A stretch of DNA of 64,000 nucleotides from Chloroflexota bacterium. Its GTDB lineage: Bacteria > Chloroflexota > Dehalococcoidia > UBA2979. The number at the start of each line of letters is the position of its first letter. Position 1 is the stretch's first letter. Under the pieces are notes generated by a model. The model ran no database searches, was not told the DNA's origin, and saw nothing but the letters and a program-made list of their open reading frames with translations. This document shows, one piece after another, positions 60,861 to 64,000 of the stretch. A program made the position numbers and the translations under genes. Location: the NCBI GenBank assembly GCA_002716405.1, contig PBBA01000002.1:27954-91953 (forward strand). Direction: 5' to 3'.

Positions 60861-60936
60861 GCCCTCGTAGCTCAGGGGACAGAGCAGCGGACTTCTAATC
60901 CGCCGGTCGGAGGTTCGAATCCTTCCGAGGGTACCA
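60861..60936 (+). tRNA. tRNA-Arg(TCT)
   Basis: GCCCTCG/CGAGGGT acceptor, CGGACTTCTAATCCG anticodon arm (TCT), GGTTCGAATCC T-arm, encoded CCA. Confidence 0.95.
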
Positions 60937-60984
60937 TTTCAAACCATGAATAAGGGTTTTATTTGTAATCCAATAACAATGCAA

Positions 60985-61311
60985 TCACTCGCCCATACAC
61001 CTGTAACCGAACTTCAATGACCATCCTAGATACAATTGAGCGTATTCATGACCTTGATCGGCAGCACGTGTGTACCATTCCACAGCAGTTTTATCATTTG
61101 CTGGAACACCCTTACCATCGGAATACATATTCCCTAGGTAGTGTTGAGCATCAGCATCACCATCTTCTGCAAAGGGAGTAAGTAGTACTAAAGCAGTTTT
61201 ATAATCCTCATCCCAATATGCATTCTTCCCTTCAGTATATTTTTCTTCATCACTAGAACAGCCAATGATACTCAGTATGCATATTATTAGAACAACAGTT
61301 AGTACTTTCAT
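60985..61311 (-). CDS. Sel1-repeat lipoprotein
   Basis: MKVLTVVLIICILSIIGCSSDEEK lipobox; Sel1 repeat DAQHYLGNMYSDGKGVPANDKTAVEWYTRAADQGHEYAQLYLG. Confidence 0.82.
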   Translation of the reverse strand: MKVLTVVLIICILSIIGCSSDEEKYTEGKNAYWDEDYKTALVLLTPFAEDGDADAQHYLGNMYSDGKGVPANDKTAVEWYTRAADQGHEYAQLYLGWSLKFGYRCMGE

Positions 61312-61356
61312 AGAAAATATCCTGTGGTGATTTAGATCACTGGAGATCAAAAAACA

Positions 61357-62436
61357 CTAGATACATATTTCTACTCCTAGGTCTGATGCTCTGGCTCTCA
61401 ATTCATCATATTGATTATTCTCTACAGGAACACCATTTTTCAATCTATCTTCTTGGGTATCAGCTTCAGGGTCACCAGCTACCAACACCTGTTCTTCTGA
61501 TGAAATAGATGGAGTTGAATGCATTTCTCTAATCATGCCATCCATCATTGATTTAAAATCGTCAACATTACGGAATTTAGCAATGTCAATAGCCATCATG
61601 AAACTCATATTTTCGCCGGCAGATAACTGAGCTCCATAACCACCACCTGAGAGTACTCCACATAAAATATCAACGACAAGTCCTAGGCCATATCCTTTAT
61701 GAGATCCTTGTTCACGAGTATTCCCCAATGGATTCATAGCCCAATGCTCTCCCCTATCACCCAACGGTTCAGTTAGAGGTTCGCCCTCGGCTGTCACTGC
61801 CCAACCTTCAGGAATTTTAACACCCAAACGTTTAGCTAGACCTATTTTCCCACTTGCGACAGTACTAGTCGCCATATCTAAAACAAAATCACGCTGTTCC
61901 GCAGCAGGAGCTGCGAATGCTATAGGATTCGTTCCTATTCGAGGTCTGGCTCCTAATGCAGGGCGTACTGAAGGGCTAGCGTTCGTCATGGCCAGTCCGA
62001 TCATATCGTGAGTCAGTGCCATCATAGGGTAATAGGCCACCATACCTATATGGTGGCCATCCTTGATAGTAGTCATACCAACTCCAAAATCTTTAGCTTT
62101 AGAAATAGACATTTCCATACCTTTATAAGCGGCTACAAAACCTAACCCATTCCCACAGCTTAGCAACGATGTTGTGTCAGTCTCAGAAATTATTTCGATA
62201 CTCTGTGGAATTGTATACTCACCTTTTTCAATCGCAATGGAGTATCTCACAGCATTCCCAACACCATGTGTATCAACTCCTCTCAAACTTGCGGATACTA
62301 AGATTTTCGAAGTGATATCAGCATGTTCTTCTGGTACATTGACACCCCTTAAAATGACAGAAACTTGTTTAAGCAAATCAGAGTGTGGTATTCGTGTTGA
62401 ATTGAATTCGTTTAATTTGAGATTTTGTAATGGCAA
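61357..62436 (-). CDS. Malate/L-lactate (LDH2/MDG2) family dehydrogenase
   Basis: DTHGVGNAVRYSIAIEKG; GHHIGMVAYYPMMAL; TNASPSVRPALGARPRIGTNPIAFAAPA; KGYGLGLVVDILCGVLSGGGYG. TTG 62436 with AGGAG 7 nt upstream preferred over ATG 62469. Confidence 0.88.
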   Translation of the reverse strand: MPLQNLKLNEFNSTRIPHSDLLKQVSVILRGVNVPEEHADITSKILVSASLRGVDTHGVGNAVRYSIAIEKGEYTIPQSIEIISETDTTSLLSCGNGLGFVAAYKGMEMSISKAKDFGVGMTTIKDGHHIGMVAYYPMMALTHDMIGLAMTNASPSVRPALGARPRIGTNPIAFAAPAAEQRDFVLDMATSTVASGKIGLAKRLGVKIPEGWAVTAEGEPLTEPLGDRGEHWAMNPLGNTREQGSHKGYGLGLVVDILCGVLSGGGYGAQLSAGENMSFMMAIDIAKFRNVDDFKSMMDGMIREMHSTPSISSEEQVLVAGDPEADTQEDRLKNGVPVENNQYDELRARASDLGVEICI

Positions 62437-62452
62437 AATATTTCTCCTAATC

Positions 62453-62527
62453 TCATTTTTCTTCATCACCAGAACAGCCGATGATATCCAGCATGGATAT
62501 TGCTAGAACAACAGTTAGTAACTTCAT
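62453..62527 (-). pseudogene. Truncated lipoprotein signal-peptide ORF (24 aa), remnant copy of the 61.3 kb lipoprotein 5' end
   Basis: MKLLTVVLAISMLDIIGCSGDEEK*; 63 of 73 nt identical by eye to the start of the 61311 lipoprotein gene. Confidence 0.7.
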
Positions 62528-62664
62528 AGAAGGTATCCTATAGAAATCTCGATCACTTTGGAATACTCATTGCCTCACGTAAATCGATCGCTGACTGACC
62601 TTTCTATAAATGTAAGAGGTTTAATTTTTTTATATCACTCCAAACTATAGGCACTTAAGTAAGT

Positions 62665-63462
62665 TCATGGTGCAGGTGCTATCTCAGGAATATATTGATC
62701 GAAATAACTGATCCTATTGGGCACTGTATTTTCTATTGTTTGAAGAAGATCTTGAGAAATTCTTGAAGTCTTATATCGCAAGGCATAGTACATTGGGAAT
62801 GTTTCAGCAATATCTTCCCGGTTTGGATAATCTCTGGCATACATGGATATAAAGTTTACGTCAGCAGACTGTGCTATTTGCCATTCTCTACCGTAGTGAT
62901 GGGGATCCAAAGAGGTATGTGATGCCTCATGTAAAAATACTTCTTCCAAAACTCCAAGATCAATCAATTTTAATCCTCTTCCATGATGAATCAGAAGGTT
63001 ATTATTCCCGCCACCAAAATCTTTATCGCCTTTATGTAACCAGATTGTTTTCACTTCCTCTCTTAAAATTGTTGGAAGTTGCCCTACTGCATAGAGATAA
63101 ATTAAAGCAGTCGCTTCAGCATTTTCGGCCGTTTCAAACTCAGAATTCACCTGTATTTCTATTTTAAGACCGTCTGAAAAATCAGCCTCAAATAGAAATG
63201 GATTTAGAGTATTGAAAGTTCCAGTTCGCCTGTCAAACATTAATCGAGGGGCATCAGGTATTTTCTTCAAAGAATTATAAAAACTTGGGTCAGATGTGTT
63301 TACTATTTCGCTACTACCTGGAATCCAAAGAGTCCCGCGAAATGGTGGATTATTATCATTGATTGATGGATTTGGAGTACCAAGAAGAACTGCTGTTGCT
63401 CCTGCTGCACAACCGATTACACCCAGAGTAAATATTGTCAGAACAACAGTTGGCATTTTCAT
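62665..63462 (-). CDS. Lipoprotein with HExxH metallopeptidase-like motif
   Basis: MKMPTVVLTIFTLGVIGCAAG lipobox; VLEEVFLHEASHTSLDPHHYG; ATG 63462 preferred. Confidence 0.7.
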   Translation of the reverse strand: MKMPTVVLTIFTLGVIGCAAGATAVLLGTPNPSINDNNPPFRGTLWIPGSSEIVNTSDPSFYNSLKKIPDAPRLMFDRRTGTFNTLNPFLFEADFSDGLKIEIQVNSEFETAENAEATALIYLYAVGQLPTILREEVKTIWLHKGDKDFGGGNNNLLIHHGRGLKLIDLGVLEEVFLHEASHTSLDPHHYGREWQIAQSADVNFISMYARDYPNREDIAETFPMYYALRYKTSRISQDLLQTIENTVPNRISYFDQYIPEIAPAP

Positions 63463-63492
63463 ACACAATATTCTACTAGAAATATTGTGTAT
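63461..63492. promoter_or_regulatory. Perfect 12-bp inverted repeat abutting a lipoprotein start codon
   Basis: ATACACAATATT-ctactaga-AATATTGTGTAT. Confidence 0.65.
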
Positions 63493-63687
63493 TTCGGAAC
63501 ACACATCCTTACACGAAAATCTATCACCGACTGCTCCTCCTTACGTATGGGACAGCATAGCCCTCAAAAGTTCACTATCTTTGACTCTACCTCAACAATA
63601 TCAAAGAAATTCAACGTCCTTTCGGATATGGTGATAAAATTTGCCGTATGTTGTCAAAGTCCTATAAAACCTTTATTTGAGATAGAA

Positions 63688-64000
63688 ATGCCAAAAAGAT
63701 TACAACTACGATTTTTCTTTATTACAGGATTATTGGCTTTACTAACGAGTATTGCGTGTGACGATACTGATCGCTTAGCTGAAGCAGGCTGGAATAAGCC
63801 CACAAATATAAGTCCCACTTATGTTATGACTTCTGATTTAGATGAAGAATCATTACAGGTCGTACAAGCTGGAATAACTAAAGCTCAAGAATATTTAGGC
63901 AATTATGGTCCTCTAAAGGTTTTTATTATTGGCACTGACATTGAAGCTGCAGGTGTAGTTTCAAGAGAGTTCTGCGAGTGGACATACGAAGGTCAAGAAA
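63688..64000 (+). CDS. Putative lipoprotein, 3' end beyond window
   Basis: Open frame from ATG 63688 to the window end: MPKRLQLRFFFITGLLALLTSIACDDTDRLAEAGWNKPTNISPTYVMTSDL..; lipobox-like LTSIAC. Not in the ORF track because it has no stop in the window. Confidence 0.65.
   Translation, partial: MPKRLQLRFFFITGLLALLTSIACDDTDRLAEAGWNKPTNISPTYVMTSDLDEESLQVVQAGITKAQEYLGNYGPLKVFIIGTDIEAAGVVSREFCEWTYEGQE

Follow-up and report, generated by a model that had tools for sequence, protein, structure and literature searches.

The window is a stretch of 64,000 nucleotides (G000:C9:27954-91953, the contig stopping where the window stops) from a genome of 1.32 Mb, 84.5% complete, of an uncultured marine member of the Dehalococcoidia, probably SAR202-type. 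Near its far end a tRNA-Arg(TCT) gene is followed, about 48 bp on, by the stop codon of a Sel1 lipoprotein gene, behind which lie a gene for an Ldh_2 (malate/lactate dehydrogenase family) protein without a signal peptide and a gene for an HExxH lipoprotein, here called HEASH (Table 1). A short 5' module stands before each of these genes, and the minus-strand starts at 61311, 62527 and 63462, with their translations, are positioned exactly as in the original prediction. Read in the direction of the genes, module 2, the Ldh_2 block, module 1 and the Sel1 block follow one another with joints within about 10 nt (in one assembly): the Ldh_2 block ends about 15 nt past its stop codon, module 1 starts within the next 8 nt, the Sel1 block starts at the exact end of module 1 (61239), and the joint of module 2 with the Ldh_2 block carries the microhomology AAAAT (62455-62459). 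Divergent from the HEASH gene, another lipoprotein gene starts on the plus strand at 63688-64000 (MPKRLQLRFFFITGLLALLTSIACDD) with an unrelated leader and is cut by the contig end.

Table 1. Features of the array in the window, and sites of the module and its upstream element in other contigs.
Feature	Position	Strand	Evidence or remark
tRNA-Arg(TCT), island anchor	60861..60936	+	ARAGORN
Sel1 cargo block	60982..61239	-	DNA 93% identical to G010:C22
Sel1 lipoprotein CDS, 108 aa	60985..61311	-	in-frame fusion to leader copy 1; PF08238 E=6.5e-12
Module copy 1	61239..61341	-	~30 nt leader + 24 codons (MKVLTVVLIICILSIIGCSSDEEK)
Ldh_2 cargo block with its own ribosome site	61349..62459	-	92.6% identical to G001:C22:10075-11185
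Ldh_2 family dehydrogenase CDS	61357..62436	-	PF02615 E=3.4e-101
24-aa ORF of module copy 2	62453..62527	-	MKLLTVVLAISMLDIIGCSGDEEK, then stop
Module copy 2 with upstream element	62455..62600	-	repeat search, blast
HEASH (HExxH) lipoprotein CDS, 265 aa	62665..63462	-	cargo ~62668-63396
Module copy 3 with upstream element	63409..63558	-	most diverged
Upstream ~70-bp element, window	63488-63568	-	
Fourth, decayed module copy of the window genome	G000:C6:66340-66408		breaks after codon 10
Upstream ~70-bp element, other sites	G000:C6:66285-66376; G001:C20:51261; G001:C2:2495; G001:C22:11446; G001:C17:22668; G002:C37:9075; G002:C43:5322		

The three modules are homologous, and their likeness goes beyond what signal peptides share by convergence. 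An unprompted repeat search of the window returned the module copies as its first family, with copy 2 83% and copy 3 74% identical to copy 1 over 66 nt, and copies 1 and 2 83% identical over 103 nt (61239-61341 and 62455-62557); the predicted 63 of 73 identical nucleotides from the ATG proved correct on recounting. Blast E-values are 1.7e-23 for copies 1 and 2, 9.6e-8 for copies 2 and 3 (70.9% identity over 127 nt) and 1.7e-4 for copies 1 and 3. Smith-Waterman scores over positions -90 to +72 are 114, 62 and 47 for the same pairs. Across 2000 dinucleotide-preserving shuffles of each pair the highest values are 28-31, the top score of copy 2 against the other 334 ORF starts of the window is 26, and relatives' lipoprotein starts that were found by profile and lack DNA homology score 19-34 against the module. 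Since the module pairs lie above all three references, we take them to be homologous rather than convergent, as the original prediction held. Its further claim of shared upstream DNA holds for copies 2 and 3, for which the upstream DNA alone (about 70 nt) scores 32 against a shuffle maximum of 28, but not for copies 1 and 2 taken alone, where the shared upstream stretch, some 30 nt joined directly to the coding match, scores 20, which is not significant; copies 1 and 3 show no upstream homology (score 14). Between copies 1 and 2 the pN/pS of 1.28 indicates no constraint, a value that comes from 22 codons only and from pairs that are not independent.

The module recurs elsewhere in this genome and in relatives. 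The window genome (G000) holds four copies, the fourth being the decayed one in C6, and five more occur with other cargo behind them in three related marine Dehalococcoidia MAGs: three in G001 and one in G002, both of the same genus as the window genome, and one in G010, of another genus in the same family. The same leader precedes different cargos in four genomes. Copy 2 is 90% identical to the C6 copy and 77.5% to that in G001:C22. The fuller copies encode MKVLTVVLAICMLSVIGCSNDNDAEIAELKNQIQELQQAQ, then an Ala/Thr/Pro linker and then varying cargo; the stretch of coil and linker in them bears a weak resemblance to the Lpp/OprI alanine zipper (NF040598, under the cut-off). The G001:C22 locus is repeated in an independent assembly, on a contig (L029, DJLG01000027.1) from a MAG labelled Proteobacteria UBA6522 that is near-identical to the Dehalococcoidia locus and, for that reason, probably misbinned. 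The remaining genomes among the 44 searched gave no module copy that stands up, and none of 46 pattern matches in viral contigs is related to the module. Weak profile matches in G033, G067, G025, G002:C11 and G000:C4 were set aside as convergent signal peptides by their DNA score, that in G002:C11 (34) being borderline.

The upstream part of the longer copies is a conserved non-coding element of about 70 bp, with a core TCGGCGAYGGAGTCTCGTG behind a hairpin, that recurs in islands before different genes (Table 1). Its predicted RNA structure has 9 pairs and zero covariation with no match in Rfam, an Rfam search of the module loci gave only tRNAs above threshold, and a sigma-70 scan found sites no more numerous than in shuffles. 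One could suppose that the module is a small mobile element, a mobile promoter or MITE-like unit transposing before genes, which would suit both the homologous upstream DNA before non-homologous genes and the presence of the element before genes that lack the signal peptide (G001:C20, G002:C37 and G001:C2). We consider this improbable, as the repeat search showed that the copies share no terminal inverted repeats of the kind seen in MITEs and insertion sequences (a 12-nt inverted repeat at 63461-63492 belongs to copy 3 only), the upstream edges vary by copy, and the copies sit always at gene starts with the frame mostly kept. Putative mobile promoters (Matus-Garcia et al. 2012, via PMC9208149) are described as homologous upstream regions before non-homologous genes, a feature matched by copies 2 and 3 and by the G000:C6, G001 and G002 loci; unlike those, the conserved block here also takes in at least 60-72 nt of coding sequence, which specify a secretion signal.

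The Sel1 block is 93% identical to its counterpart in G010:C22, in a different genus for which the background is about 76%; there a TPTPTP linker replaces the module in front of Sel1, and Sel1 is again seen with an adjacent module. A second Sel1 homologue (62% aa, also with a TPTPTP linker) lies at the contig end that starts G000:C4 (L155:2-490) and may be a further island copy that carries a different leader. The Ldh_2 block stands at 92.6% identity to G001:C22 against a background of 80-83%. Compared at the DNA level, these blocks document recent transfer of cargo.

The likely start of the Ldh_2 gene is the TTG at 62436, preceded by AGGAG (62448-62444); G001 conserves both, and no module stands in front of the gene there. 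Because both genomes have the arrangement AGGAG-7 nt-TTG, Ldh_2 brought its own ribosome site along. In copy 2 the 24-aa ORF stops 4 nt ahead of this AGGAG and Ldh_2 has no signal peptide, so the module here would serve transcription or translation only; copy 2 is at most a transcript or translation leader, with no secretion fusion. Secretion is plausible as a prediction for copies 1 and 3 only. The notion of an expression and secretion cassette shuffled onto new cargo is well supported as an evolutionary pattern, though not as secretion at copy 2, and no promoter signal above chance was found.

The HEASH cargo gives the strongest support for independent movement of leader and cargo in the family. 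Homologues (43-55% aa) in G006, G020, G065 and G024 all have leaders unrelated to the module. Over about 720 nt the central block is 93.7% identical between G006 and G020 (background 70-75%) and 87.9% between G065 and G024 (background 70.6%), and in both of these same-genus pairs (L149, L150, L151 and L152) the flanks on either side fail to align; the gene abuts tRNA-Val in G020 and tRNA-Glu in G065. Neither the HEASH nor the HELVH protein had a significant match in a sequence search of the PDB, and a single-sequence structure prediction of the HEASH cargo was unusable (pLDDT 33.8).

These comparisons also bear on the reading in which the copies form a paralogous lipoprotein family that arose by tandem duplication, the mature parts having diverged past recognition while the signal peptides were kept. 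The head-to-tail copies in one array would fit, as would the purifying selection on the signal peptides of the full copies in relatives, where synonymous changes far outnumber replacement changes (e.g., pS 0.33 and pN 0.00 for L018/L019, again over 22 codons and with pairs that are not independent); the same selection also accords with the explanation favoured below. This reading is nevertheless strongly disfavoured: the mature proteins are indeed unrelated, as originally noted (Sel1, Ldh_2 and an HExxH protein without a Pfam match), the same cargos stand behind other leaders elsewhere at 88-94% identity, and it is the upstream non-coding DNA that is conserved, the coding DNA just past the module being unrelated.

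What the original prediction missed is the setting that accounts for the array, an island of variable content at tRNA-Arg(TCT), where relatives carry att duplications. The content behind this tRNA differs among G000, G001 and G010. In G001:C2 (L121:2236-3187) a 905-bp insert carrying a single RidA-type gene (PF01042 E=2.8e-15) comes after the same tRNA-Arg and is flanked by a duplication of the tRNA-Arg 3' end (47/47 nt); TTATGGGCA repeats lie close to both ends of this insert, which resembles a minimal satellite cassette. In G010:C12 (L122:3821-3861) a tRNA-Arg end of the window's genus (41/41 nt to G000) lies beside the genome's own tRNA-Arg, as if an element had carried the donor's tRNA end along, and further tRNA-Arg fragments occur in G010:C22 and G024:C95. 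On G000:C1, 1.3 kb of other genes are followed by a tRNA-Arg-like fragment (C1:1266-1309, 39/44 nt) and then an oxidoreductase, whose homologue lies 2.8 kb from tRNA-Arg on a single contig of G065; the window's island thus probably has its far side at G000:C1:1-1309.

Some other module copies also lie near tRNA genes or fragments. Those in G000:C6 and G001:C8 stand behind tRNA-Gly; in G000:C6 (L013:1446-3074) tRNA-Gly(TCC) is followed by a 1.55-kb insert with a tRNA-end duplication of 46/46 nt. That insert's gene encodes an MrcB-like N-terminal domain followed by a GIY-YIG-type (T5orf172/MUG113) domain and is restriction-like; PADLOC returned no defence-model match, this gene included. The copy in G001:C17 lies near a tRNA-Met-like 3' fragment, a search for whose intact donor returned the fragment alone, and the module loci in G001:C22 and G002:C20 have no tRNA nearby. 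No intact integrase gene was found in the islands, and each genome has only two tyrosine recombinases, apparently XerC and XerD. Between the tRNA-Gly and the module in G001:C8 (L032:4784-4984, minus strand) lies a C-terminal tyrosine recombinase remnant of about 40 aa (MGHANISQTMEYVHRSKK; PF00589 E=0.074).

One-gene inserts between att repeats, as in G001:C2, and a conserved element that adjoins several insert ends could suggest an integron-like site-specific cassette system with the ~70-bp element as its recombination site. It is very unlikely, given that the att duplications are tRNA 3' ends, that the element is missing from copy 1 and from the G001:C8 copy and has no covariation-supported structure, and that no integron integrase (IntI) was found, the window genome, at its 84.5% completeness, showing no third tyrosine recombinase. 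Least probable of all is an artefact of assembly or binning in which MAG contig ends were joined at repeats: in every genome the copies do lie close to the end of a contig (Fisher p about 6e-6), and 538 bp separate copy 3 from the end of the window's contig, which cuts the island, but such positions are expected of variable islands in metagenome assemblies, assemblies made independently in different studies contain the modules and cargos again, the pairing of Sel1 with an adjacent module recurs in G010:C22, and the reading frames are intact.

The explanation we favour, at a probability of roughly two in three, is that the array belongs to an additive island anchored at a tRNA gene, where newly acquired cargo is joined repeatedly to a standard secretion leader. 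As far as DNA comparison reaches, homologous modules, unrelated cargo, sharp block edges, leader swaps and a tRNA hotspot with att duplications are established. The window region would be the tRNA-proximal end of an island grown behind tRNA-Arg(TCT), and the island genes would be assemblies of exchangeable blocks among which the leader module is a common one, comprising a conserved leader (with the ~70-bp upstream element in longer copies), a ribosome site, a predicted lipoprotein signal peptide and a lipobox, to which the fuller copies in relatives appear to add a short coiled coil and the linker. Coding blocks that land behind the module would gain expression and, when fused in frame, export and lipid anchoring, both the transcription of the module and the arrival of the proteins at the cell surface being presumed here. 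DNA may enter by integration at tRNA ends, which the att duplications in relatives support, with recombinases probably supplied in trans, as the lack of an intact one in the islands and the two per genome suggest. New leader-cargo joints, judging from those observed, may form by homologous recombination between module copies or by microhomology end joining.

Additive flexible genomic islands at tRNA genes have been described in Candidatus Actinomarinales (PMC7771536) and Methylophilaceae (PMC10872708). In the portions of these reports consulted they consist, as here, of small cassettes at tRNA genes with recurring tRNA-end repeats and content that differs in close relatives; they carry envelope sugar, metabolic and resistance genes, and those portions describe no reused leader-signal peptide block and no exchange of leaders on one and the same cargo. 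The present loci likewise show variable content at the tRNA 3' end and att repeats (G001:C2 and G000:C6), the att evidence at the window's own island being only the probable far fragment at G000:C1:1266-1309. Tycheposons, described in Prochlorococcus, are also tRNA-anchored and found in streamlined aquatic bacteria, but they span 4-200 kb and have their own tyrosine recombinase (PMC10872708), whereas the inserts resolved here are about 0.9-1.6 kb (the window's island being cut by the contig end) and an intact recombinase was not found in these incompletely assembled islands. Polymorphic toxin systems in general (PMC3482391), and among them the lipoprotein toxin SitA of Myxococcus (PMC5562445), share with our array a constant N-terminal lipoprotein module, unrelated C-terminal domains and carriage on mobile units. 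Here, by contrast, the shared module is much shorter, one cargo is a cytoplasmic-type dehydrogenase, adjacent immunity genes were not recognised and no toxin activity is implied; the cargos matched no toxin or immunity families in the libraries used, and the next genes are other cargos. We regard the reused leader in tRNA islands as a variant of known island and leader-swap biology, a combination that a limited literature search did not find described.

It is conceivable, though we hold it as a tentative and rather doubtful extension, that leader-plus-cargo exchange is family-wide, with few standard leaders and a mobile cargo pool recombining at block borders in tRNA islands and so yielding ever-new surface lipoproteins for environmental functions. 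Polymorphic toxins recombine effector domains in a like manner, and the exchange proposed here would serve environmental surface functions instead. The array bears on the long-standing question of how acquired genes get expressed and exported, and offers a testable case of leader capture in a streamlined ocean bacterium, with imported blocks of about 93% identity lying flush behind a secretion leader and with leader and cargo moving independently of one another. Islands of this kind, systematically broken by metagenome assembly, may represent hidden surface-protein diversity in marine Dehalococcoidia.
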